A stretch of DNA of 37,101 nt from Syntrophorhabdaceae bacterium (lineage in GTDB: Bacteria; Desulfobacterota; Syntrophorhabdia; Syntrophorhabdales; Syntrophorhabdaceae), in contig JAOAGQ010000024.1 in assembly GCA_026415675.1 (NCBI GenBank), forward strand, positions 1 through 37,101. Reading direction: 5' to 3'. The notes beneath the pieces were generated by a model, which saw nothing but the letters and a program-made list of their open reading frames with translations, was not told where the DNA came from and did not search any database. Each line of letters begins with the position of its first letter. Position 1 is the stretch's first letter. This document shows positions 1,938-15,379 of the stretch, one piece after another. The position numbers and the translations under genes are program-made.

Positions 1938-3458
1938 CTATCCGTCGCCCTTCGATTCTTTCAGTACCTCTTCTAAGGGTCTTATCGCATCTATATGACC
2001 CCCTATTGCTTTGAATGTCTCGTACGTCATCGTGTACTCAACGGGGAGTACAAAAGAGGGCGTAGGAGAAAGGTATATGCTTCCATATCTGATCTTTGAA
2101 ACATCGACGAGGAAATTGATACCACCTCCGGGGAAGATAAAAGGTTCTGCCCCGCCTATGGTCACCTTGACCTTTCCCTCATGGACGGCCCGGGTAAGCT
2201 TAATGGGATTCTTTGTAACCCCTGCCCTAGCTGAACCTCCAACCCCTGCGGCAAAGATGCCACTTGTCTTTGATGGTTGACAGGAATCCTTAAGGACATT
2301 TATAAATTGAGCCGCCTCCTGGGTTAATCTCTCTTCTACAAATTCACCGTTTACCATCCTGAAGAAGGCCACTTTTTGCCCTGTAGTCTCTGTGATAAGA
2401 AGGGTCATACCTTCGTATGCCTTATCCCTATCTATCTCTTTTATCACGTCGAGGGGGTTATGGATATTCGTTCCTCCCCATCCATCTCCTTTTTCGAGAA
2501 AGTATCTCCCGTCGGTACTCTTCTGCCCCTTTATCTGTATGCAAGACCTCTTCTTTTTTAGGTATTTTCCTGCAGGATGCTCACTGAAGAGGGCCGTTAT
2601 ATGGCCATCGAGCACTATCACCTCATCCGCTGCGTTGAACATGTAGGGGGCAAAAAGGCCGGATGTGGCACTGCCGCATCCCACCCTCATCTTCTCCTCG
2701 ATAATTCCGTTTATAACAGGGGCCTCACCAAGGGCAAACTCTACTTTTGCTCCGTCCTCTATTTCGATCTCAACCCTTTTCCCCCTCAAGAGTTCATATA
2801 TCACCCTTGCCGCAAACTGGCCATCCTTAGAGGTGAGGATATTTACCCCCCCTAAGGAGAGCATCTTGGAGCCATACTCCTCTGTACAGAGATGGCCTAT
2901 GGTCCGTCTCCCTTTTCTTTTTACATACACCCTTTTCCCTTCCGTACCGAGATAAAGATCAGAATCTATCTTCACCTTCAAACCACTGTAACTCAAAGGG
3001 GCCTCTGTGACAACGGTCACGATGTCTATTCCTTCCCTTACACCCTTCACTATGAAAGGAGAGGGGATGAAATCGGGGTATGTGGTACCGGAACCTATGC
3101 CGGTGATTAGGGGTCTTTCTATAGACGGGTCATGACCCGATTTAACTATCGATTCAACCTCCTCGTATGTATGAAGCCTCTCTTTTCGCACAATCTTCCC
3201 ATCTTTATTGTAGTATCTCATACAGGCGCCAAAGCCCCCTTCGGGAATCCTACATAGGATGGGGCAAGATGAACATTGGGGTCTCCGATCTATAATACTC
3301 AGGATTAAGGCATTCTGGGGACACATTTTCATACAGGTCTTACACTCCACACAGCCGTCTTCTATAAAGGCCTTCTTCTCCTTAAGCCTTATGACCCCTA
3401 ATGGGCATATCTCCTCGCATATGCCACAACCTTTACATCTATCTAAATCGACCTTCAT
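1938..3458 (-). CDS. hnr: 6-Hydroxynicotinate reductase
   Basis: Catalyses ferredoxin-dependent reduction of 6-hydroxynicotinate to 1,4,5,6-tetrahydro-6-oxonicotinate in the cytoplasm. The 506-residue protein starts with two [4Fe-4S] motifs (C8, C11, C14, C18 and C36, C39, C42, C46). A third Cys set follows, C62-x2-C65-x3-C69-x9-C79. The E. barkeri enzyme has two [4Fe-4S] clusters, one [2Fe-2S] cluster and a covalent flavin, so the third set may hold the [2Fe-2S]. A GSATSG stretch at 262-267 resembles the Thr/Ser-rich sites flavinylated by ApbE enzymes. AGGAG lies 6-7 bases before the ATG at 3458. Enamidase, the next pathway enzyme, ends 2 bases upstream and the UPF0280 gene starts right after the stop. 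The assignment rests on the cluster arrangement plus the very clear enamidase neighbour; I could not align it to a reference. Confidence 0.88.
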   Translation of the reverse strand: MKVDLDRCKGCGICEEICPLGVIRLKEKKAFIEDGCVECKTCMKMCPQNALILSIIDRRPQCSSCPILCRIPEGGFGACMRYYNKDGKIVRKERLHTYEEVESIVKSGHDPSIERPLITGIGSGTTYPDFIPSPFIVKGVREGIDIVTVVTEAPLSYSGLKVKIDSDLYLGTEGKRVYVKRKGRRTIGHLCTEEYGSKMLSLGGVNILTSKDGQFAARVIYELLRGKRVEIEIEDGAKVEFALGEAPVINGIIEEKMRVGCGSATSGLFAPYMFNAADEVIVLDGHITALFSEHPAGKYLKKKRSCIQIKGQKSTDGRYFLEKGDGWGGTNIHNPLDVIKEIDRDKAYEGMTLLITETTGQKVAFFRMVNGEFVEERLTQEAAQFINVLKDSCQPSKTSGIFAAGVGGSARAGVTKNPIKLTRAVHEGKVKVTIGGAEPFIFPGGGINFLVDVSKIRYGSIYLSPTPSFVLPVEYTMTYETFKAIGGHIDAIRPLEEVLKESKGDG

Positions 3459-3460
3459 CT

Positions 3461-4606
3461 TTACTCCTGAACTATAAGGGCTTTTCTCACCGGAGGGGGT
3501 GTGTTCCTACTAACCTGGGTCTTTATCTCTCCATCTATGAGCACCATGGCAATCCCCGGGATATCCCCTACCTCTATGGCGGATTTCGCATCCTTTCCTG
3601 CCGAGCCCATAGGGGCATCTATGATCTGTAAGTCTGCCCCCATACCCTCTTTGATCGTACCGTGATTAAGCCCAAAGGTCCTCTGGGTGTTCCCTGTGGC
3701 GCAGCATACGGCGACCTCTGCGGGGATACCGCACAAGGAAGAGATGTAGTTCACCATCCTCCAGATACCAAGGGGTATTACCCCTGTTCCCGATGGGGCA
3801 TCGTTACCGAGGATGAGCCTCGAGAGCATACCCTTGTTCTTCAGGTATCTCCCAATCTCGAAGGCGGAGAGGGGGTTTCCGCAATGGACGAGTTCTATCG
3901 CACACGATGTCCTGTCTATTACCCTGTATGCCTCCTCGATAGGGATACTCGTAGGGCCTCCGTTTAAATGGCAGGCAACGGTGGGATCCGCTGTGATTAC
4001 ATCGTCGCATGTGACGGTTGAGCTTCCGGGGATGGATGTTCCCCCTACGTGCATCAGGACCTTCATCCCGTATTTTTTTGCCCATCCCACCATCTGCTTT
4101 GCATCCTGGGCGCTCTTTACACTTCCAAGCCCTATCTCTCCTACAAGCCATACCCCATCTTGGGCAAGCTCTCTGAAATCCTCCTCCACGAGACCCTTCT
4201 CAAGGATCAGGGCCCCTCCGTAGACTTTCACCCCTGAGGGTCTGAATCTCGCAAAGGATTTATGGGCAAGAACCGCAAGGGCCTTTGTACCCTTTGGGTC
4301 TACAGGTCTTCCGGGCAGATGGACCTCCCCGGCGGATATCATCGCCGTTACCCCACCGTGGAGACTGCTATCTATAAAACCAAGCTGATTCTGTCTTGGG
4401 GTAAAATCGCCGAATACAGGATGGGCATGGGAGTCTATAAAACCGGGGCATACGGTCATCCCTGCCGCATCGATCCCCTTTCCCTTAACATCTCCCCTTT
4501 CAATGGCTTTTATCTTCCCTTCCTCGATGAGAATCGATACAGGGCCTTCGATTAAGGGGTTATCGATATCCCCTGTAAAAATGGAGCCGATATTTCTTAT
4601 TACCAT
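3461..4606 (-). CDS. ena: Enamidase (1,4,5,6-tetrahydro-6-oxonicotinate hydrolase)
   Basis: An amidohydrolase-superfamily enzyme that hydrolyses both the enamine and amide bonds of 1,4,5,6-tetrahydro-6-oxonicotinate to give ammonia and 2-formylglutarate. The 381 residues match my recollection of E. barkeri enamidase along their whole length, including LHGGVTAMISAG, HLPGRP, GGALILEKGL, GGTSIPGSSTVT, GNDAPSGTGVIPLG and VSRNTPPPVRKA. Likely metal ligands by analogy are H60 and H62 (DSHAH), E157 (GEIGLG), H186 (LMHVGG), H213 (CHLNGG) and D269 (GNDAPSG), as expected for the binuclear Fe-Zn site. The ATG at 4606 is preferred over a GTG three codons upstream because GGGAGG lies 8 bases before it and because it aligns with the known N-terminus. 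It lies between the molybdenum hydroxylase and 6-hydroxynicotinate reductase genes, with spacings of 24 and 2 bases. Confidence 0.95.
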   Translation of the reverse strand: MVIRNIGSIFTGDIDNPLIEGPVSILIEEGKIKAIERGDVKGKGIDAAGMTVCPGFIDSHAHPVFGDFTPRQNQLGFIDSSLHGGVTAMISAGEVHLPGRPVDPKGTKALAVLAHKSFARFRPSGVKVYGGALILEKGLVEEDFRELAQDGVWLVGEIGLGSVKSAQDAKQMVGWAKKYGMKVLMHVGGTSIPGSSTVTCDDVITADPTVACHLNGGPTSIPIEEAYRVIDRTSCAIELVHCGNPLSAFEIGRYLKNKGMLSRLILGNDAPSGTGVIPLGIWRMVNYISSLCGIPAEVAVCCATGNTQRTFGLNHGTIKEGMGADLQIIDAPMGSAGKDAKSAIEVGDIPGIAMVLIDGEIKTQVSRNTPPPVRKALIVQE

Positions 4607-4630
4607 CGCTTCCACCTCCCTTATATTGCT

Positions 4631-6760
4631 TCACAAAAGCTTTTTTAGCCTTTCCAGATCACAGGGTAGCTCATAAGGTCTTACACCAACTGCGTCCGTA
4701 ATTGCATTCGCTATGGCTGCCGCCTGGGGTATCAGGGCGGGCTCCCCCACACCCTTTGCACCGAATGGCCCTGTTGGCTCCTCATCTTCAACGATGAAGG
4801 CCTCCATGGCAGGCATATCCATGGATGTGGGTATATAATAATTATCGAGGGATTCGGTCTTGCCGGGGATGAACTCCTCCATCAGGGCAAACCCAATACC
4901 CATTGCAATGCCACCGTATACCTGACCTTTTATGTTTTTTATGTTTATGGCCTTACCCACATCGTGGGCTGCATAGACCCTTAATACCTTCACATATCCT
5001 GTAATTCTGTCCACCTCCACCTCGGCCATATGGGTTGCATAGGCGTAAGTGGCATAAGGTTTTCCCTTGGCCGTATCCATATCGAGGGCCTCTGTGGGTG
5101 GGTCGAAATATCCTTCGAATGGAGGAAAACCCCTATCTCGATAAGACCTGTAAATCTCCGATATACCTCTTCCTCTATAAAACCCCTCTTTCTCGAGATA
5201 GGCCCTCAGATTAAGTGCCGCTAACTGCACCGCCTTCCCCGATATATACGTCTGCCTGCTTGCGGAGGTGGAACCTGCATCCCCCGTTAAATCCGTATCT
5301 GCCCTGACCAAAAGCACATCCTTTCCATCCACGTCGAGGGTTTCGCAGAGTATCTGTAAAAGAACTGTATCCGAACCCTGGCCTATATCACATGCCCCTG
5401 TATGGAGGGCTATCTTCCCCTCTTCTGTAAGGGTGATCCTTGCAGAGGAGGGGTTTGAGATACCTGTATTCCCCATACCGTAGAACATGGAGCCAAGACC
5501 GAATCCCCTTGTCCCCGACTTTTTCCTGCCCTTCCAGAAAGGTTCGATCGCCTTTAACGTCTCTATGAAACCCACAGATGTCCCAAGCTCCTGGGAGGTA
5601 GCGGTCTTTGAACCTCTTTTAAGGGCGTTTTTTATTCTTATCTCGAGAGGGTCGATATTTAGCTCCTTCGCCATTATATCCATCTGGGACTCATGGGCAA
5701 AGGCGATCTGGGGGACACCAAAACCCCTCATGGCGCCGGATACAGGGTTATTTGTGTATAGCATCCTGCTCTCCGCATACACATTGGGCACCTCATAGGG
5801 CCCCGTGGCATGGACAGCAACCCTCAGGCATACGGTAGAACCGTATGAGGCATAGGCCCCTGTATCCCCTGTAACATCCACCTTTACGGCCTGGATTGTG
5901 CCGTCCTTTTTTGCCCCGGTTTTATAATGTATGAGTAATGGATGTCTTTTTGTGTTTGATAGAAAGCTCTCCTCCCTCGTAAATCTTATAAGGACCGGTC
6001 TTTTCGTATGATAGACCGAAAGGGCCACATATCCTTCCACCGTCATATCGAGCTTTCCCCCAAAACCACCCCCTGTTGTCGCCTGGATGATCCTTATACG
6101 CTCCTCAGGGATGGCGAGGAGGCGGGATATCTCGTTTCTCTTGTAATGGACGTTCTGGGTGGATGATGTGATGATGAGTCTACCCTTTTCATCCATATAA
6201 CCTAAGCCTGCCTCGGGCTCAATATATGCATGGTCGAGCCATGTCGTCCTGTATGTTCTCTCAACGATCACATCCGATTCACGAAAACCCCTATCTATGT
6301 CACCTTTTATGACCTTCCGGTGGGATAAAAGGTTGCCGTCATCGTGCAGTTTAACCCCTCCGTTCATGGACTGAAGTGGATCGGAAACAACATCCATCTT
6401 TTCGTATTCTATCCGTATGAGATGGGATGCCCTCCTTGCGATGGATTCATCCTCCCCGAGGACAATCGCTACAGGTTCACCTATATACCTTACCCTCTCT
6501 TTTGCGAGTAAAGGCTGGTCCTTCTTTATGATCCCGTATACATTCTCCCCCGGTATGTCCTTTTGCGTGAGAATTTTAATGACCCCCTTATACGTAAGGG
6601 CCTTATCAAAATCGATATTCTTTATCCACCCATGGGGGATTGAACTTCTCACAATTACGCCATAGAGCATACCTTCTATATGTATGTCTCCTGCATATTT
6701 AGCCTGTCCCAAGACTTTCTCTATGGCATCGATCCTATCCATGTATCTCTTAATGGGCAT
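4631..6760 (-). CDS. Molybdopterin-binding subunit of the predicted nicotinate dehydrogenase
   Basis: Large subunit of a xanthine-dehydrogenase-family hydroxylase, predicted from context to hydroxylate nicotinate at C6 using water. The 709-residue protein has the family signatures intact: TTGGGFGGK at 228-236, AMRGFG at 343-348, GQGSDT at 460-465, and GAKGVGEP at 667-674 with catalytic Glu673. The start at 6760 is chosen for a GGGAGG 5 bases upstream; it overlaps the stop of the FeS/FAD gene by 11 bases, and the longer frame to 6817 lies inside that gene. E. barkeri nicotinate dehydrogenase splits this subunit into two proteins (NdhL/NdhM) and carries labile selenium; here it is a single chain and selenium cannot be judged from sequence. 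The nicotinate substrate is inferred from the enamidase and reductase directly downstream. Confidence 0.86.
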   Translation of the reverse strand: MPIKRYMDRIDAIEKVLGQAKYAGDIHIEGMLYGVIVRSSIPHGWIKNIDFDKALTYKGVIKILTQKDIPGENVYGIIKKDQPLLAKERVRYIGEPVAIVLGEDESIARRASHLIRIEYEKMDVVSDPLQSMNGGVKLHDDGNLLSHRKVIKGDIDRGFRESDVIVERTYRTTWLDHAYIEPEAGLGYMDEKGRLIITSSTQNVHYKRNEISRLLAIPEERIRIIQATTGGGFGGKLDMTVEGYVALSVYHTKRPVLIRFTREESFLSNTKRHPLLIHYKTGAKKDGTIQAVKVDVTGDTGAYASYGSTVCLRVAVHATGPYEVPNVYAESRMLYTNNPVSGAMRGFGVPQIAFAHESQMDIMAKELNIDPLEIRIKNALKRGSKTATSQELGTSVGFIETLKAIEPFWKGRKKSGTRGFGLGSMFYGMGNTGISNPSSARITLTEEGKIALHTGACDIGQGSDTVLLQILCETLDVDGKDVLLVRADTDLTGDAGSTSASRQTYISGKAVQLAALNLRAYLEKEGFYRGRGISEIYRSYRDRGFPPFEGYFDPPTEALDMDTAKGKPYATYAYATHMAEVEVDRITGYVKVLRVYAAHDVGKAINIKNIKGQVYGGIAMGIGFALMEEFIPGKTESLDNYYIPTSMDMPAMEAFIVEDEEPTGPFGAKGVGEPALIPQAAAIANAITDAVGVRPYELPCDLERLKKLL

Positions 6761-8087
6761 ATGATCCTCCCAGTATATCCGATAAAAGACCCATAAGGAC
6801 AGGGAGCTTATACACATAAGAAGGTCTCATCCCGCTTTTATCTACTATACCGTCTATGATGGATTTGATCCCCTGGGCTATAGTAGACTCATCCCTACTT
6901 TTGCCCTTTAAGTATCCTTCCCCATCGTAAGCCCTAAACGGCATGGGGGTACATGAGCCTATGGCGAGCCTTACATCCTCTATAATGCCATCCTTCTCCT
7001 TTATCGCATAGGCGATCGATAGACGGGCAATGGCAAGGGCTGCCCTTTTTGCCACCTTTATATAACCCTCTCTGTAGCCATTAAGGGGCAGAACCTTTAT
7101 TGCTGTTAATATCTCCTTTTTTCCCAGCTGGGTCTCATATGGGGCTACAACGAATTCAGATAATGGCACTTCCCTTATCCCCTCTTTCGATTCGAGGATA
7201 CATACCCCATCGTGGACGAGTAAGGGGGGTATGGAGTCCGCGGCAGGGGAGGCGTTTATGATATTGCCCCCTATGGTGCCCATATTTCTTATCTGGGGAC
7301 TACCGATAAGGCCACAGGCGATGGACAGGCTTTTTACCTTACCGGTTATAATCGGATCTCTTTGAATCTCTCCGTGCGTTGTCGTTGCCCCTATAATCAC
7401 CCTTCCATCCTCTTCCCTTATGCCTTTTAGTCCATTAATGGAAGTCACATCAATATAATCGTTGTAAACCCCTTTCTTTCTCGCCTTTACGAGAAGGTCC
7501 GTGCCTCCTGCTATGATCCTCCCATCTTCTTTCTCATAGAGCATATCGAGGATCTCTTTTATCCCTTTCCCCTCAGGGGGGCTTCTTCTCTTTTCTACTT
7601 TCCGTCCATTACCTTCCCCTCCAAACTTACCGTTCTCTGCCGCATCTTTAATAGCCTCAACAATCTGCTGATAGCCTGTACACCTGCAGAGATTTCCGCT
7701 TATGGCCTCTTTTATCCCCTGTATATCGAGTTTTTTGCCCTTAAGGAGAAGACTATACGCTGAGAGTAACATCCCAGGGGTACAAAACCCGCACTGTACG
7801 GCCCCTGCCTTTATGAAGGCCTCCTGGAGAGGGTGGAGGTTGCCGTTTAAACTCAAAAACTCTACGGTCTTTACATCGTGACCGGATATTTTGGTCGAGA
7901 GGGTAAGACACGAATAGTGGGGTTCGTCATCGATTAAGACCGTGCACGTCCCGCACTCCCCTATCCCGCAACCCTCCTTTACACTCGTGATCCTGAATCG
8001 TACCCTCAGGGTATAAAGGAGGACCTCGTCCCCCTCGACCTCACAGGATACGCTTTTACCGTTTAAAATAAAATCTATCCTTTCCAT
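6750..8087 (-). CDS. Fused 2[2Fe-2S]-FAD subunit of the predicted nicotinate dehydrogenase
   Basis: A 445-residue fusion of two electron-transfer modules that are often separate proteins. Residues 1-150 are the small [2Fe-2S] subunit type, with a plant-ferredoxin-like cluster (C40, C45, C48, C60) and an alpha-helical cluster (C99, C102, C134, C136). Residues about 172-445 are the CoxM/XdhB-type FAD domain, with IAGGTDLL at 192-199 and NMGTIGGNI at 268-276. A hydrophilic linker of about 20 residues (EGNGRKVEKRRSPPEGKG) joins them. It passes electrons from the molybdenum site to an acceptor such as NAD(P)+. It overlaps the Mo subunit gene by 11 bases and follows dctM by 30 bases. An artefactual frame fusion is unlikely, because both halves and the linker are in one uninterrupted frame. 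Confidence 0.87.
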   Translation of the reverse strand: MERIDFILNGKSVSCEVEGDEVLLYTLRVRFRITSVKEGCGIGECGTCTVLIDDEPHYSCLTLSTKISGHDVKTVEFLSLNGNLHPLQEAFIKAGAVQCGFCTPGMLLSAYSLLLKGKKLDIQGIKEAISGNLCRCTGYQQIVEAIKDAAENGKFGGEGNGRKVEKRRSPPEGKGIKEILDMLYEKEDGRIIAGGTDLLVKARKKGVYNDYIDVTSINGLKGIREEDGRVIIGATTTHGEIQRDPIITGKVKSLSIACGLIGSPQIRNMGTIGGNIINASPAADSIPPLLVHDGVCILESKEGIREVPLSEFVVAPYETQLGKKEILTAIKVLPLNGYREGYIKVAKRAALAIARLSIAYAIKEKDGIIEDVRLAIGSCTPMPFRAYDGEGYLKGKSRDESTIAQGIKSIIDGIVDKSGMRPSYVYKLPVLMGLLSDILGGSYAH

Positions 8088-8117: not shown

Positions 8118-9425
8118 TCATCTCCCCATCAATCCTGGTAAGAAGAGGGCAAGTTTAGGAAATATGGTGAGAATTACCGCAACGGCGATGATCGCAATGA
8201 GAAAGGGCACAGAACCTCGGAATATCTCCGCCATCGGAATGTCTTTTGCGATACCGGCAAGGGTGTAAACGTTTAGACCCACAGGGGGTGTGATAAGGCC
8301 TGCCTCCATCATGAGTACCGCCACAACGCCGAACCATATGGGGTTAAAATTAAGGGCAACTACAACGGGGAATATCACAGGGAGGGTGAGGACCATCATC
8401 GATACCGCGTCGAGAAAACATCCGAGGAGAAAATAGATCCCTATTATGATGGCGAGTATCAGATACCTCGATATGGCAAGACCGGCAATCCAGTTGGATA
8501 CGACGGTAGGTATGGTGGACAGGGCAAGGAAATAACTGAAGACCGTTGCCCCCGACACAAGGAACAAGACCATAACGGATATACGGGTCATCTCGATGAG
8601 GGCATTGAATAGGCCCTTCAAGGTGAGCCTTCTCTTTATCAGCACAATTATCAGTAAAGCCGTTGCCCCTATAGCCCCTGCCTCTGTAGGGTTTATAAAA
8701 CCGAGGTATATACCCCCCATGACGATAAAGAATACAAGTAAGGTCTCCCATATGCCTTTTAAGGCGTATAATTTCTCTTTTAACGGGACGCTCCCCGGGG
8801 TCTTCGGGGCAAGGGACGGGTCTATCTTGACCTGGATGATCACGATTACAATATAGGCAATGGAGAGTAAAATTCCCGGTATAATCCCCGATATCAATAG
8901 CTTTCCTATGGACTGTTCTGTGAGCATTCCGTATACGACAAAGCCGAGGCTCGGAGGTATGAGAAAACTCAACGTCCCCCCGGCTGCAATCACCCCTGTT
9001 GCGAGTCTTGGATGGTAGTTGAACTTTCTCATCTCGGGGAGGGCGATATTCCCCATCGCTGCGGCAGCGGCGACAGATGAACCGCTCACAGCGGCAAAAC
9101 CTGCACAGGCAGCGATCGTTGCCACCCCGAGCCCGCCGGGGAGTCTTCTAAACCACTTATCGAACGTGTTATAGAGTTCCCCTGTTATCCCTGCTGTAGT
9201 CGCAAAGCCACCCATCAGTATAAAAAGGGGTATGATCGTGTATGGATAGTTTGAGGCCACCTCATACAATGTCTTCGCCACAACAGGTAATGCGGCATCA
9301 AGGGAGGTCAATGTCCATATACCAAAGAATCCGACAAACATCATGAGAAAGGCGATAGGCATACCGAGTATGAGAAGGAGTATCACAAGGCCACAACCGA
9401 TAATTCCGACAAGGACAGGGCTCAT
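8118..9425 (-). CDS. dctM: TRAP transporter large permease, DctM type
   Basis: The large membrane subunit of a tripartite ATP-independent periplasmic transporter, which drives uptake with an ion gradient. The 435-residue protein is hydrophobic throughout and has the family pattern: GMPIAFLMMFVGF near the N-terminus, PLFILMGGFATTAG, and a C-terminal GLITPPVGLNVYTLAGI segment typical of DctM. About a dozen membrane helices are visible. A TTG codon immediately precedes the ATG at 9425; I take the ATG, with GGAG about 9 bases upstream. The TGA of dctQ ends 3 bases before, so the two permease subunits are probably coupled. The likely cargo is nicotinate or a related pyridine carboxylate, because the transporter sits between nicotinamidase and the ring hydroxylase; this is inference. 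Confidence 0.92.
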   Translation of the reverse strand: MSPVLVGIIGCGLVILLLILGMPIAFLMMFVGFFGIWTLTSLDAALPVVAKTLYEVASNYPYTIIPLFILMGGFATTAGITGELYNTFDKWFRRLPGGLGVATIAACAGFAAVSGSSVAAAAAMGNIALPEMRKFNYHPRLATGVIAAGGTLSFLIPPSLGFVVYGMLTEQSIGKLLISGIIPGILLSIAYIVIVIIQVKIDPSLAPKTPGSVPLKEKLYALKGIWETLLVFFIVMGGIYLGFINPTEAGAIGATALLIIVLIKRRLTLKGLFNALIEMTRISVMVLFLVSGATVFSYFLALSTIPTVVSNWIAGLAISRYLILAIIIGIYFLLGCFLDAVSMMVLTLPVIFPVVVALNFNPIWFGVVAVLMMEAGLITPPVGLNVYTLAGIAKDIPMAEIFRGSVPFLIAIIAVAVILTIFPKLALFLPGLMGR

Positions 9426-9428
9426 CAA

Positions 9429-9917
9429 TCACTCTCCACTTTTTGTAAAAACGTTTTTAATGTGCGTCATGAGATCCAAAAAAAGTTCAAGCCAAAGCAG
9501 TATTCCCCCAACGGTCACAAGTAGACGGAAGGGCCTCTGGGGAACCCTCAGCATATCCGATACGGTTTTCTCCTGGATCCCTTCCATATAACCTTGCCAT
9601 ACTATGATGGCGACTATAAACATCGATGCAAGGGTCGTTATGATACCGATCATATCCCTTTTTCTCTCGGAAAACCTCTTTGTGAGGAAGTCTACCCCCA
9701 CATGGCCTTTAACCTGCTGGGTGTATGCGGCACCCAAAAGGATCATGATGGAGAGCATATACTCCGAGAGCTCTATGGTACCGGGGAAGGGTTTATCGAA
9801 TAGACCCCTCCCGATGGCATCTAAGGTGGTGATAAGCATAAGGGGTATGGCAAAAAACATACCCCCGTAGCAGAAACCCCTTGTTATCTTTCTGATGACG
9901 TGATGAAAACCTTCCAT
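9429..9917 (-). CDS. dctQ: TRAP transporter small permease, DctQ type
   Basis: The small membrane subunit of the TRAP importer. The 162-residue protein shows four hydrophobic segments (around residues 17-35, 50-65, 88-108 and 130-148) and family features such as LDAIGRGLFDKPFPGTIELSEY and QVKGHVGVDF. It pairs with DctM to form the membrane complex and is encoded between the binding protein and DctM in the usual P-Q-M order. Spacing is 17 bases from dctP and effectively zero to dctM. The Shine-Dalgarno sequence before the ATG at 9917 is weak (AGG about 12 bases upstream), consistent with translation coupled to the gene before it. Confidence 0.9.
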   Translation of the reverse strand: MEGFHHVIRKITRGFCYGGMFFAIPLMLITTLDAIGRGLFDKPFPGTIELSEYMLSIMILLGAAYTQQVKGHVGVDFLTKRFSERKRDMIGIITTLASMFIVAIIVWQGYMEGIQEKTVSDMLRVPQRPFRLLVTVGGILLWLELFLDLMTHIKNVFTKSGE

Positions 9918-9934: not shown

Positions 9935-11026
9935 TCACACCTTTTTAAACTCAGGGGGACAAGCGACAAGGTCTATCTTCCTCTTTTCACACTCCTCATT
10001 CATGATGGCAACGGCCTTTCTCGCAGGGAGACCCTTTGCCTCGAGGTCTTTCACCCATGTCCTTGTCACATCCTGGAATTTCTTATACCACTGCTCAGCC
10101 TCAGACTTTGGCAGGTCTATAAATTTTACCCCTGCATCCGCTATCCTCTTCATCAATTCGTTCTTATAGACGTCCCTTGTGAGGCCCCCGGTATATTTAA
10201 AGGGGTTTGTGCAGACCTCCTCTATGAGTTTCTTCTGGTCTTCAGGGAGCTTCTCCCAAGATTTCAGATTCATCACCACCCCTTCGGATACGCAGCCGAA
10301 GGTAAGTACCGTCCCATACTTGGCCACCTCATAGAGTTTGAAACCCTCGATCAAGGGGGCACAGGTGACAAGGCCGTCAACGGTGCCTGTCTCCATTGCC
10401 ATATACACATCCCCTAAGGGCATAAAGACAGGCTCAGCCCCTAAGGCCTTTATGTAGTTTGTCTGATGGCCTCCTGGGGAACGGAGTTTCATCCCTTTTA
10501 GGTCCGCCATCTTGGAGACAGGTTTTTTTGTCCATATGAAGGACTGGATACAGCCGTTTAGTTCAAGGACCTTTACATTTTTGAACTCATCCTTCAGTAT
10601 CCTGTTATAGACGGCATTCCCTATGTCCGCGGCGAGTTCTTTACCGTCCACCCAGACGGCAAGGGAGAGCACATCCGTTAAAGGGAACTTTCCCGGTGTC
10701 CATGTGGCGGTAAAATACCCCATATCGGAGAGACCCTTTGCCACTATATCGAAATGCTCAGGCCCTTTTCCCAGGGCAGCCCCAGCATACATCGTATAGT
10801 TAATCTGTCCTTTGCTTTTTTTCTTCAACTCCTCAAGCATGGGGATCCAGACGGTCTTCACCTCTTTGCCAACAGGGGGATGCCATGTACTGAACTTGAT
10901 GTTCGTCGACTGGGCGTTGAGAATACGGATACCGCCGTCGAACATACCCATCCCAACGGCAGCCCCGCCGATAAGCATGGTCTTTAAAAAACCTCTCCTC
11001 GTAAGTTCGTTACATGCTTCACACAT
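9935..11026 (-). CDS. dctP: TRAP transporter solute-binding protein, DctP type, with a Tat signal
   Basis: The periplasmic substrate-binding component of the TRAP importer, 363 residues. The N-terminus has a twin-arginine motif (TRRGFLKT, R10-R11) followed by a hydrophobic stretch, so export is probably through the Tat route. Two Cys (C2 and C5) precede it, outside any lipobox. The body shows DctP features: FSTWHPPVGK, KLRSPGGHQTNYIKALGAEPVFMP and DVYMAMETGTVDGLVTC, the last being the helix around the conserved MxxGxVDG element. GGAGGAG lies 6-8 bases before the ATG. It is spaced 27 bases from the nicotinamidase gene. The ligand is inferred to be nicotinate or a related aromatic carboxylate; DctP proteins usually bind the ligand's carboxylate through a conserved Arg. 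Confidence 0.9.
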   Translation of the reverse strand: MCEACNELTRRGFLKTMLIGGAAVGMGMFDGGIRILNAQSTNIKFSTWHPPVGKEVKTVWIPMLEELKKKSKGQINYTMYAGAALGKGPEHFDIVAKGLSDMGYFTATWTPGKFPLTDVLSLAVWVDGKELAADIGNAVYNRILKDEFKNVKVLELNGCIQSFIWTKKPVSKMADLKGMKLRSPGGHQTNYIKALGAEPVFMPLGDVYMAMETGTVDGLVTCAPLIEGFKLYEVAKYGTVLTFGCVSEGVVMNLKSWEKLPEDQKKLIEEVCTNPFKYTGGLTRDVYKNELMKRIADAGVKFIDLPKSEAEQWYKKFQDVTRTWVKDLEAKGLPARKAVAIMNEECEKRKIDLVACPPEFKKV

Positions 11027-11053: not shown

Positions 11054-11707
11054 TCAGAGGGCGTTGATGTTTTCTATATCAAGCCCTTCAATGATACGAA
11101 TGCCCATATCTTTCATCTCTTTTATCGCATTTCGGGTCGTATCTTTTCCTACACCTCTACTTAGCCCCTCAATGAATACGACTCTATAGCCATTCTCCTT
11201 TGCATCCTTTGCCGTTGCAAACACACAGTAATCCGTTGCAAGGCCAAAGAGAATCACCCCTTCAATATGGGATGCCCTTAATACCTCATCCATTTCTGTT
11301 TTTTTACCCCCATCGTCCTGAAAACCCGAGTAGCTGTCAAAATGGGGGTCCTGTCCTTTTTTTACGATGGCATCAAAGAGTTTATTCTCTATCAATATCT
11401 CCGCACCATAAGTTCCCATCACACAGTGGGGAGGCCAGAGTACCTGTTTTCTTCCATTTACATCGATTACATCAAAGGGGTTTTTCCCGGGATGGTTAGT
11501 GTAAAAGGATACATGGTCAGGGGGATGCCAGTCCTGGGTGGCATAGACCTTACACCCCTTCTCCTTAAGGGTCCTTGTTGCATGCTCAACACTCTTTATA
11601 TAGGCCCCGTCGGTACCCTCTACCGCAAGGGCCCCTCTCTTCCATGTAGTAAAATCGCCCTGTATATCCACAACGATAACCCCGGTTTTTTTAATGTCTA
11701 AACCCAT
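11054..11707 (-). CDS. pncA: Nicotinamidase
   Basis: Hydrolyses nicotinamide to nicotinate and ammonia. The 217-residue protein is of the isochorismatase/cysteine-hydrolase fold with the full nicotinamidase set: catalytic D14, K117 (KKGQD) and C161 (GLATDYCV); metal ligands D59, H61 and probably H94, with H65 in the DWHPPDHVSF motif; and the WPPHCVMGTYGAE segment. DSYSGF at 124-129 is also typical. The start overlaps the end of the aldehyde dehydrogenase gene by 10 bases, so the gene is embedded in the operon. Nicotinamidase normally serves NAD salvage. Co-transcription with a nicotinate importer and ring-degrading enzymes suggests that here it feeds nicotinamide into catabolism; that role is inferred from position. 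Confidence 0.93.
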   Translation of the reverse strand: MGLDIKKTGVIVVDIQGDFTTWKRGALAVEGTDGAYIKSVEHATRTLKEKGCKVYATQDWHPPDHVSFYTNHPGKNPFDVIDVNGRKQVLWPPHCVMGTYGAEILIENKLFDAIVKKGQDPHFDSYSGFQDDGGKKTEMDEVLRASHIEGVILFGLATDYCVFATAKDAKENGYRVVFIEGLSRGVGKDTTRNAIKEMKDMGIRIIEGLDIENINAL

Positions 11708-13182
11708 CTCAACGTCACCGTCTTCTCATCGAGGAAGAGTTTAACCGAATCCATCCTTGACTTTGCAGACCCGAAGAAGGATTCCTTTTTTGAACCAAGA
11801 CCGAAAAATGAGTACGGCTGGGGTATACCTGCGTTGACACCAACGTTACCCACTTCGCACTCCCTTATGAACTTACGGGCTGCCTTACCGCTCTCCGTTA
11901 CTATACAGGCAGAATGGCCATAGTTGGAACTATTTATCCATTCTATGGCCTGATCCAGGCTTTCTGCCTTAATCAGATTGCATATAGGGCCAAAGGACTC
12001 TTCCTTTGCAATCGTCATACCCACATGGACATCCTCAAAGATCGTCGGGCCCAAGAAATACCCCTTCTCATATCCCTTTATCTTAATCTCCCTTCCATCG
12101 AGTATGATTTTTGCCCCTTCCTTGATCCCCCTCTCTATAAAATCTTCCACCTTTTCTTTCCCCGATTTTGTCGTAAGGGGTCCCATCTCCGTTGATTCAT
12201 CGAGGCCATACCCGATAACCATCTTTTTTGAGGCCTCAAGCAGCCTCTCCTTTATCCTATTATAGACATCCCCAACGATTACCACATTGTCAGAACCGAG
12301 ACACCTCTGTCCTGTCATCCCGAAGCATCCCCTCATGATATACTGAACGGCGTTTTCGACATTCCCATCGGGCATAACGACGATATGGTTCTTTCCGTTT
12401 CCGTTCAATGAGGACCTTTTGCCCAGTCTTCCACAGGCCTCAAAAAGGCCCTTTGCCACTTGCGTTGAACCTATGAAACCGACACCCTTAACCTTCGGGT
12501 TTTCAAGGATGTGGGTATTTATGTGGAATTCCTTATTGATATGGATCAGGTTTAATACCCCTGGGGGGAAACCCACCTCTTCAGCTACTTTTGTAACCGC
12601 ATCGGAGGAAACGGGGCACTGCCAGCTCGGGGAGACGATTACAGTACAGCCACAGGCAAGGGCATAGGGCACAAAGGATGACCAGGCGTGCATCGGTATA
12701 TTGCCAGGGGTCATGATCAGAAAGACACCAACGGGTTCTCTTATCTGGTAGCAGTCGATCCCATTTGCAAGTTGTTCCACGTGTTCCCCTTTGTAGAGGC
12801 TATACATGGAACTCCCTGCGGCCTCTATGTTTTCAACGCAACGGGATATCGTACCCCTTCCATCATCTATGGTGGAGCCGTGGTCCTGGACGAGGATACG
12901 GGCGAGTTCTTCGTGATGTCTCATAAAGGCATCCCTTAAGTTGAAGATAAGTTTTGCCCTGTCCCTAAAGGGTACATCCCGCCATCTTTTATAGGCATTC
13001 CAGGCAGCCTCAACGGCCATATCGGCGATCTCTTCTGTGGCGACAGGGGCCTCTGCTATCACCTCATCTGTTGCGGGGTTTGTGGTCTCGAAATAAAGGC
13101 TATCGTCAGGGACAAACCATCGCCCATCTATATAATGCTTTAATCTTCCGTAGTTTTTCGATATTTCTGTTAGAACCGCCAT
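11698..13182 (-). CDS. CoA-acylating aldehyde dehydrogenase of the methylmalonate-semialdehyde type
   Basis: A 494-residue aldehyde dehydrogenase closest in pattern to methylmalonate/malonate semialdehyde dehydrogenase (MmsA/IolA). It shows NPATDEVIAEAPVAT, LNGNGKNHIVVMPDGN, GMTGQRC with catalytic C294, and EESFGPI. As in MmsA, Asn replaces the usual general-base Glu before the KNH motif, which fits thioester release to CoA rather than hydrolysis. Two Arg that hold the substrate carboxylate in MmsA seem conserved: R114 (ISRCVENIE) and R293 just before the nucleophile. MmsA enzymes oxidise 2-substituted 3-oxopropanoates with loss of CO2. 2-Formylglutarate, the enamidase product, is such a compound, so the predicted product is glutaryl-CoA. 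GGAGG precedes the ATG at 13182. The family call is strong; the substrate is inference. Confidence 0.9.
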   Translation of the reverse strand: MAVLTEISKNYGRLKHYIDGRWFVPDDSLYFETTNPATDEVIAEAPVATEEIADMAVEAAWNAYKRWRDVPFRDRAKLIFNLRDAFMRHHEELARILVQDHGSTIDDGRGTISRCVENIEAAGSSMYSLYKGEHVEQLANGIDCYQIREPVGVFLIMTPGNIPMHAWSSFVPYALACGCTVIVSPSWQCPVSSDAVTKVAEEVGFPPGVLNLIHINKEFHINTHILENPKVKGVGFIGSTQVAKGLFEACGRLGKRSSLNGNGKNHIVVMPDGNVENAVQYIMRGCFGMTGQRCLGSDNVVIVGDVYNRIKERLLEASKKMVIGYGLDESTEMGPLTTKSGKEKVEDFIERGIKEGAKIILDGREIKIKGYEKGYFLGPTIFEDVHVGMTIAKEESFGPICNLIKAESLDQAIEWINSSNYGHSACIVTESGKAARKFIRECEVGNVGVNAGIPQPYSFFGLGSKKESFFGSAKSRMDSVKLFLDEKTVTLRWV

Positions 13183-13241: not shown

Positions 13242-13436
13242 TCATAAAACATCCAGAACAGGGAAGGGTATCTTTATCGCCGAACAGGGACAGACATCGG
13301 CACAGAGGCCACATTCTTCACAGTATTCCTCCTCAAGTTTTACGGTGTCCTTTTCCATAGACAGCGCCTGGGCAGGACAGACATGGGTGCACTGACTACA
13401 CCCCGTACATCTTTCTATGTCTATCTCAGGTATCAT
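13242..13436 (-). CDS. Small 2[4Fe-4S] ferredoxin
   Basis: A 64-residue bacterial-type ferredoxin with two complete motifs: C10-T-G-C13-S-Q-C16-x3-C20-P and C39-E-E-C42-G-L-C45-x3-C49-P, plus an extra Cys51. It should act as a soluble low-potential electron carrier in the cytoplasm. It lies 2 bases downstream of the OYE-like flavoenzyme gene and 59 bases upstream of the aldehyde dehydrogenase gene. 6-Hydroxynicotinate reductase (EC 1.3.7.1) uses ferredoxin as donor, so this protein is a natural partner for it; it could equally serve the adjacent flavoenzyme. GGAG lies about 8 bases before the ATG at 13436. Confidence 0.92.
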   Translation of the reverse strand: MIPEIDIERCTGCSQCTHVCPAQALSMEKDTVKLEEEYCEECGLCADVCPCSAIKIPFPVLDVL

Positions 13437-13438
13437 CG

Positions 13439-15379
13439 CTAAATCTCCATTCCAAGACGATAACCGTCATGTATGGCATTTAATAGCCTTCTCGGTCTTT
13501 TCGCATCTCCAATGAGAAACACGTCTATGCCCATGTTTTTTATGCCGCCTACCAGTTCTTCAGAGGACTCCCTCTCTGTCATGATAAGGCTGTCAAAATT
13601 TATCTTCTCAACCCTATCTTTGGCTGTGATCTCGATCTCTTTTTCTTCAAAGGAGAGGACATTTGCCATTTTATATATGGGTATGCCCTTTTTTTTCATA
13701 AGCTGGAGGTGTCTCCATAGATAAAAAGGGCTTATGTCCCTGCCGAGCACCCCCGTTTTTTCTATGACCACAAGCTGGGATAGGCCCTTTTTTATGAGAA
13801 AGATCGCAACGGATAGGCCAACGGACTGACCCCCTATGATTGCTATACGGCCCTGTGGTTCAATACCCCTCATGATAATATCATAGGGGGTATATACCTT
13901 ATCGTTAGGGATACCTTCGGGGGCTTTAATCTTTGCCCCTGAGGCGATTACAACGGCGGATGTGTCTTCTTTTTCCCACATTTCCATATCCCATTCGATA
14001 CCGAGCCTCAAATCTACGCCATTTCTTTCACACTCCCCCTTGAGATAAGAGATGGGTCTTAAGAGTTCCTCTGCCCCTTCCTCTATTCTGCTGGCGAGAA
14101 GGATGTTACCGCCCGGTTGGTCTTCTTTCTCGTAGAGTATTACCCTGTGCCCCCTCTTTGATGCTACCGAAGAAAACTGCAAGCCCCCAGGGCCTCCCCC
14201 GATCACGGTTATCGTCTTTCTCTTTTTAACGATAGAAAAACCGTAATAACCCCACTCTGCCTCAGCCTCATGGCCGAGCGATGGCCTTACCGTACACATG
14301 ATAGGCTGATGGTGGTAGAGACGGGAGAAACATTCGTTACAGGCTATACAGGGTATGACCTCATCCTCCCTGCCTTCTTTTGCTTTGATGGGTAAGGCAG
14401 GGTCGGCAATCATAGGACGACAGACCTCCCAGAAGTCTATCTTGCCCTCGGAAATGGCACGTTCAGGTATCTCCGGGAGAAACTGACGAAATGCCATCAT
14501 GACAGGTACCTTTACATGCCTTTTCACCATCTCCGCCACATAGAGCCAGTGACCCATGGGTACATCCCTTGTTATGACCGATTGGGAAGATTCATGCCAC
14601 CCTATGGTGACACTTAAAAAATCTGCCCCTGCCTCTTCGGCGAGTTTAAAACTCTCGATGCTCTCCTCAACGGAGTTCCCCCCTCTATCATCGAGGAGCT
14701 CGAGTCCACAGAGTCTTATCCCAACAGGAAAGTCTCCTCCCACCTCTTCCTTTACGGCATGGATAATCTCCATCATGAGGCGGCATCGTGCCTTAATGTC
14801 ACCGCCGTAATGGTCCTGTCTTTTGTTTGTATAGGAGGAGATGAACGTGGATATGAGATACCCTACGATCCCCGAGAGTTCTATCATATCATAACCTGCG
14901 TCAAGGGCCCTTCTCGCAGCCCTCCTGTGGTCGTAGATGGCGGATTTTATTTCCTCATCCGTCATCACCCTCGGTTTTTTAAAATAGGAGAGCCTCTGGG
15001 GCACATAAGAGGGCATAAGGCAGTAATCGAGGTCCACCCCGCCTTCCCTTCCGCAGTGGAGTATCTGTATGCAGGAGAGGGCCCCATGTTTTTTGATCGC
15101 CTCTGCGATTCTTGCAAGACCGGGGATAAATCTATCATCGGCTATGGACATCATACCCTTGAAACCTTTGCCCTCCCCCTTTGGATCCGGATATGCCCCC
15201 TGGGTGGTCACGATGGCGGCTCCCCCTCTTGCCTGGGCCTCCATGTATGCAACCTCTCTATCGGAGACGTACCCATTGCCATAGTTGAAGTTCGTTTCGG
15301 TGGCAGCGTATTTGATACGATTTTTTGTCTTGATAGGGCCTATCTGGCCTGGGGAAAATAGGTGGGTATATTTCTCCAT
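13439..15379 (-). CDS. Old-Yellow-Enzyme-like iron-sulfur flavoenzyme (2-enoate reductase / dienoyl-CoA reductase family)
   Basis: First gene of the operon, 646 residues. Residues 1-340 form the FMN-binding TIM barrel (LFSPGQIGPIKTKNRI, ILHCGREG, HYGGDIKARCR). A [4Fe-4S] motif follows at C344-x2-C347-x2-C350-x11-C362. Then come an FAD domain (VIGGGPGGLQ, 392-401) and an NAD(P) Rossmann motif (IIGGQSVGL, 514-522). The Cys spacing is the trimethylamine-dehydrogenase-like form CxxCNxC rather than the CxxCNQGC of most enoate reductases. No Cys equivalent to the flavin-linking Cys of trimethylamine dehydrogenase is seen. The domain architecture is that of 2-enoate reductases, which reduce activated C=C bonds with NADH. 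The true substrate is unknown: it may handle a pathway intermediate or side product, or move electrons to the ferredoxin encoded next. The start at 15379 has GAGG about 10 bases upstream. Confidence 0.85.
   Translation of the reverse strand: MEKYTHLFSPGQIGPIKTKNRIKYAATETNFNYGNGYVSDREVAYMEAQARGGAAIVTTQGAYPDPKGEGKGFKGMMSIADDRFIPGLARIAEAIKKHGALSCIQILHCGREGGVDLDYCLMPSYVPQRLSYFKKPRVMTDEEIKSAIYDHRRAARRALDAGYDMIELSGIVGYLISTFISSYTNKRQDHYGGDIKARCRLMMEIIHAVKEEVGGDFPVGIRLCGLELLDDRGGNSVEESIESFKLAEEAGADFLSVTIGWHESSQSVITRDVPMGHWLYVAEMVKRHVKVPVMMAFRQFLPEIPERAISEGKIDFWEVCRPMIADPALPIKAKEGREDEVIPCIACNECFSRLYHHQPIMCTVRPSLGHEAEAEWGYYGFSIVKKRKTITVIGGGPGGLQFSSVASKRGHRVILYEKEDQPGGNILLASRIEEGAEELLRPISYLKGECERNGVDLRLGIEWDMEMWEKEDTSAVVIASGAKIKAPEGIPNDKVYTPYDIIMRGIEPQGRIAIIGGQSVGLSVAIFLIKKGLSQLVVIEKTGVLGRDISPFYLWRHLQLMKKKGIPIYKMANVLSFEEKEIEITAKDRVEKINFDSLIMTERESSEELVGGIKNMGIDVFLIGDAKRPRRLLNAIHDGYRLGMEI

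Follow-up and report, generated by a model that had tools for sequence, protein, structure and literature searches.

We predict that an MmsA-type aldehyde dehydrogenase (ALDH), encoded among nicotinate-degradation genes of a Syntrophorhabdaceae bacterium, is a specialised MmsA that consumes the product of enamidase in the reaction 2-formylglutarate + CoA + NAD+ → glutaryl-CoA + CO2 + NADH, a reading to which we assign a probability of roughly three in four. Substrate, product, and the role of a residue signature described below are predicted from sequence, and the chemistry from the family. The prediction is supported by co-occurrence and synteny with enamidase, by the signature, by the enzyme's standing as the sole catabolic ALDH of its genome, by the fact that no methyleneglutarate mutase was recognised there, and by a candidate onward route encoded in the genome. 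We also think it probable, with slightly less confidence, that the enzyme represents a separate CoA-acylating, decarboxylating 2-formylglutarate dehydrogenase, set off by a clade and a signature of its own. Anaerobic nicotinate degradation by way of such an enzyme would be a distinct, B12-free pathway, common in Thermodesulfobacteriota and occurring also in Bacillota. This pathway would keep the energy of the aldehyde as glutaryl-CoA and could feed a sodium-pumping glutaconyl-CoA decarboxylase.

The gene lies in a nicotinate operon

The window (the whole stretch of DNA analysed, 37,101 nucleotides) carries the MmsA-type gene on the minus strand as 494 codons read from 13182 to 11698, with an ATG start and a good ribosome-binding site (GGAGGA); the plus strand across 11698–13182 is full of stops. 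The first-pass annotation had placed the gene at the same coordinates, to which we add the strand. All genes that follow are on the minus strand as well. The gene for a nicotinamidase-like hydrolase of the isochorismatase fold (11054–11707; 159 bits to PRK11609, cut-off 174) shares its first 10 nt with the last 10 nt of the MmsA gene. Beyond it lie the three genes of a TRAP transporter, encoding the substrate-binding protein DctP (9935–11026), the small permease DctQ (9429–9917), and the large permease DctM (8118–9428), and then a molybdenum hydroxylase made up of a fused FeS and FAD subunit, corresponding to the small parts of nicotinate dehydrogenase (6750–8087), and a large subunit (4631–6817) whose closest solved match is the Eubacterium barkeri nicotinate dehydrogenase 3HRD (410 bits; next 330). 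The enamidase, the enzyme that makes 2-formylglutarate, is encoded at 3461–4615 and matches the solved structure 2VUN with 441 bits, the next family reaching 35 bits. Beside it is a candidate 6-hydroxynicotinate reductase (Hnr; 1938–3458) with an N-terminal 2x[4Fe-4S] part; there being no solved Hnr for comparison, it was assigned by its fixed place beside enamidase, which it almost always adjoins in relatives. The series closes with an ApbE-like protein of the PRK04334 type (1089–1937), a core partner of Hnr and enamidase, and an AA_synth (PF06684) protein (545–1153), a core partner of enamidase. Because the intergenic gaps range from overlap to about 30 nt, we read the genes from about 13182 to 545 as one operon. 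A sigma-70 promoter scan gave no more matches than expected by chance. Upstream of the MmsA gene, also on the minus strand, are a 64-aa 2x[4Fe-4S] ferredoxin (13242–13436) and, on its far side, an OYE/BaiCD-type FMN-FeS-FAD oxidoreductase (13439–15379) whose membership in the pathway is uncertain.

An MmsA-type enzyme outside the standard family

The best family for the encoded protein is TIGR01722, the CoA-acylating methylmalonate-semialdehyde dehydrogenases (MSDHs; E 3e-124), yet its 415.3 bits fall below the curated cut-off of 448.5, and by sequence we would place it in a clade sister to the standard members. Its ten best matches among solved structures are all MSDHs (303–348 bits; 5TJR at E 7e-103, 1T90 at E 1e-94), with the next ALDHs at 221 bits. 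Cys294, Arg293, and Arg114 align with the same residues of the solved MSDHs, and Asn260 (Gln in the lineage that we call BC) stands where ordinary ALDHs have the general-base Glu; the MmsA-type residues named in the first-pass annotation are thus present. Since the protein shares with MmsA/ALDH6A1 (TIGR01722; 1T90, 5TJR, 9IZX) homology over the whole length, the catalytic Cys, the two carboxylate-binding Arg, and the missing Glu, the same chemistry is to be expected. It differs from them in forming a separate clade, in scoring under the family cut-off, in carrying His423/[KR]465/R476 and, in its own lineage, the HAWSSF motif (165–170), and in its linkage to nicotinate genes.

In the mechanism that we propose, Cys294 would attack the aldehyde of 2-formylglutarate to give a hemithioacetal, from which hydride would pass to NAD+. 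The resulting 2-carboxy acyl-enzyme thioester, its carboxylate held by Arg114 and Arg293, would then lose CO2, and CoA would take up the glutaryl group for release as glutaryl-CoA.

Two variations on this scheme have to be weighed. In one, 2-formylglutarate decarboxylates beforehand, spontaneously or on another protein, so that the enzyme merely acylates glutarate semialdehyde to glutaryl-CoA; 2-formylglutarate is a 3-oxo acid, and by established chemistry such acids can decarboxylate by themselves, while the Azorhizobium route, according to PMC3511419, which cites Kitts 1992, passes through glutarate. We consider this unlikely, as the pair that binds the alpha-carboxylate, Arg114 and Arg293, is kept in 60/60 operon-type enzymes and the conserved cluster holds no decarboxylase gene. 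In the other, CoA takes no part, and oxidation of the pathway aldehyde yields 2-carboxyglutarate or glutarate as the free acid. Many hydrolysing ALDH families do score well against the protein, and free glutarate is an Azorhizobium intermediate in the same source; the absence of the general-base Glu, as in acylating MSDHs, and the fact that every one of its closest solved structures is an acylating MSDH make this reading distinctly improbable.

A clade with its own residue signature

The operon-linked MmsAs, which are 38–73% identical to the window protein, all grouped into one clade (support 98/95) in a maximum-likelihood tree; some long branches of the tree meet. Neither the solved canonical MSDHs nor the MmsA paralogues found in related genomes fall within this clade. 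Across 81 sequences, His423, Lys or Arg465, and Arg476 occur together in 60/60 nicotinate-type MmsAs and in 0/21 other MmsAs, of which one has Arg465 alone. These positions fall in the C-terminal part of the protein, which borders the active site in ALDH structures. We propose Lys465 and Arg476, perhaps with His423, as a candidate site that would hold the second, distal carboxylate of 2-formylglutarate, since two new basic residues are what the extra carboxylate would call for. The first-pass annotation had suggested looking for a basic residue in this role, and Lys/Arg465 and Arg476, specific as they are to the nicotinate-linked MmsAs, are sequence-based candidates for it.

Co-occurrence with enamidase

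The MmsA of the operon type and enamidase keep company across genomes. Among 60 genomes (that of the window and its relatives), 29 encode the MmsA, 30 enamidase, and 28 both. Extending the survey to 395 genomes of the phylum gave enamidase in 60, the operon-type MmsA in 50, and both in 49 (Fisher p 1e-50, a value that ignores shared ancestry). For this count, lineage A was defined by 52% or more identity to the window MmsA (37/395 genomes) and lineage BC by 58% or more identity to the protein of locus L070, a record named as Thermodesulfobacteriota (13/395 genomes). We take the phylum to be Thermodesulfobacteriota, because one of its genomes, G251, has an MmsA with 100% identity to the L070 protein. 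The two genes share a contig in 38/49 genomes, 0.6–8.3 kb apart. In the one carrier in which enamidase was not found (G237), the MmsA gene adjoins AA_synth at a contig end, and most of the clusters in the 11 genomes with enamidase and no MmsA likewise stop at a contig end; in two clusters (L280 and L284) the MmsA is missing and a cut in the contig is not obvious. The same gene set, MmsA included, is found in a Bacillota cluster (L071). Gene order varies among groups (the neighbour of MmsA may be DctP, AA_synth, enamidase, Hnr-ApbE, or nicotinamidase), yet the set of genes remains the same, which argues that the partnership reflects function and not only the inheritance of one block.

These data also bear on whether the enzyme could be an ordinary methylmalonate- or malonate-semialdehyde dehydrogenase of valine or beta-alanine breakdown, present here by chance. 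TIGR01722 is indeed its best family; given a score under the cut-off of that family, a clade that takes in neither the canonical MSDHs nor the paralogous MmsAs of related genomes, and enamidase in 49/50 carriers, we hold such an explanation to be very improbable and retain a nicotinate-linked role as the preferred one.

In aerobic proteobacterial enamidase clusters (L073–L131), no close MmsA was found. A few of them contain a class III CoA-transferase, which would be consistent with a route through glutarate as in Azorhizobium.

One relative (G016) encodes, at 11558–13060 of locus L031 on contig C92, an MmsA that is 73% identical to the window protein and falls inside the nicotinate clade, in a genome where enamidase is absent. 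The genes around it, which encode a TctABC transporter, an amidohydrolase, and DapA-like and flavin-reductase-like proteins, may provide the same aldehyde, or one like it, by a different way. An enzyme of the clade can thus serve another source or substrate.

The rest of the genome

The window genome, 99.07% complete, was searched family by family. Only two ALDH-family genes were found, the operon MmsA and ProA, which adjoins ProB; there is no other catabolic ALDH. Its B12-domain proteins comprise two small subunits of the methylmalonyl-CoA mutase (MCM) type, two corrinoid proteins, a regulator-like protein, and radical-SAM proteins (a weak match on contig C56, below the cut-off, was left out of this reading). 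Each of the MCM-type small subunits adjoins an MCM large subunit. The 10 B12-domain matches included no candidate for methyleneglutarate mutase, in a search for which a mutase sequence was absent as positive control. This agrees with the first-pass proposal that the mutase route is bypassed. It could still be imagined that the route of E. barkeri, in which 2-formylglutarate is reduced to 2-hydroxymethylglutarate and the B12 mutase then acts, is encoded elsewhere and that the enzyme handles a side aldehyde, as B12 proteins do exist in the genome; with none of them resembling the mutase, the two mutase-type subunits standing next to MCM large subunits, and a genome that is 99% complete, we give this very little credence and continue with direct formation of glutaryl-CoA.

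From there, the first-pass annotation had the product join the known route from glutaryl-CoA to crotonyl-CoA. Candidate genes for such a route lie elsewhere in the genome. The carboxyltransferase of glutaconyl-CoA decarboxylase, GcdA, matches 1PIX with 757 bits (next family 141), and there are two membrane proteins of the OAD_beta/GcdB type. A protein resembling glutaryl-CoA dehydrogenase (GCDH) is represented by its C-terminal 191 aa only, at a contig end (L157 9651–10223, contig C28), and is 88–90% identical to acyl-CoA dehydrogenases of close relatives. The best solved match of these GCDH-like relatives is the Desulfococcus glutaryl-CoA dehydrogenase 3MPI (371 vs 300 bits), which we take to be non-decarboxylating; they score about 412–447 against an NCBIfam cut-off of 470 and carry Gly where 3MPI has the key Arg. 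The NCBIfam model GlutCoADH_Des had no match above cut-off in the window genome, the near-cut-off protein being traced to the contig end. With the gene truncated by the end of the contig and the key Arg replaced by Gly in its orthologues, the dehydrogenase step is not certain. A single classical decarboxylating dehydrogenase is the less likely form of the onward route: it is more likely that glutaryl-CoA would be converted to crotonyl-CoA by the GCDH-like enzyme, acting as a non-decarboxylating dehydrogenase, together with a biotin-type glutaconyl-CoA decarboxylase.

The GCDH-like fragment begins with RGLGDVYKRQ at the contig end, which looks like sequencing-adapter read-through. An HGD-D pair, resembling 2-hydroxyacyl-CoA dehydratase and benzoyl-CoA reductase, was considered as a pathway step and not adopted: it stands beside mmsA in one genus (L035 11787–14182), and in the window genome a similar pair lies on a different contig (L191 7911–10257) with no characterised family above cut-off.

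Relation to known nicotinate pathways

The nicotinate fermentation of E. barkeri, according to PMC9304392, proceeds through nicotinate dehydrogenase, 6-hydroxynicotinate reductase, and enamidase to 2-formylglutarate. The window operon has the same first three enzymes and would produce the same compound. In the E. barkeri work of Alhapel 2006, 2-formylglutarate is reportedly reduced and then passed to the B12-dependent methyleneglutarate mutase; the MmsA-type enzyme would take the place of both steps. The aerobic pathway of Azorhizobium caulinodans (Kitts 1992) goes through free glutarate, as stated in PMC3511419; Kitts 1992 is also cited in PMC9304392. That pathway resembles the predicted one in its ring-reducing opening and, reportedly, in having glutaryl-CoA as a later intermediate. 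The glutaryl-CoA of Azorhizobium is said, from the work of Kitts 1992, to arise by succinyl-CoA-dependent CoA transfer onto glutarate. Azorhizobium thus differs in its use of free glutarate and CoA transfer, and the aerobic clusters differ in lacking a close MmsA near enamidase.

Our literature search, with most subscription journals outside its coverage, returned no paper linking MmsA to the breakdown of nicotinate, or enamidase to glutaryl-CoA. The first-pass claim of novelty narrows: the direct step from 2-formylglutarate to glutaryl-CoA was not found in the literature searched, while glutaryl-CoA as a destination was already known from Azorhizobium, where it is reached via glutarate. The upper pathway and the chemistry of MmsA are known, as is the occurrence of glutaryl-CoA among the intermediates when nicotinate is degraded; what would be new is only the direct decarboxylating, CoA-acylating step, with a clade of enzymes for it.

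What is known of the anaerobic breakdown of nicotinate (vitamin B3) comes mainly from a single fermenting species and involves an unusual radical mutase that depends on B12. If the prediction is true, a few CoA-ester steps complete this breakdown in place of the longer B12-dependent route, and the MmsA family gains a new substrate. The residue signature would then tell nicotinate-type enzymes from the MmsAs of the valine pathway, with which they are likely annotated alike, and the route from nicotinate through glutaryl-CoA to crotonyl-CoA becomes a testable prediction for many uncultured anaerobes.

Accessory genes

A conserved XRE-cupin (PuuR-like) protein is often encoded directly upstream of mmsA in relatives (L033 2878–3417, L040 1299–1838, L044 15534–16073) and is likely the regulator of their nicotinate operons; it was not seen in the window, where the 64-aa ferredoxin occupies the upstream place. 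The AA_synth (PF06684) and ApbE-like proteins accompany Hnr and enamidase in groups ranging from Bacillota to Rhodobacterales, and two copies of AA_synth are frequent in aerobes.
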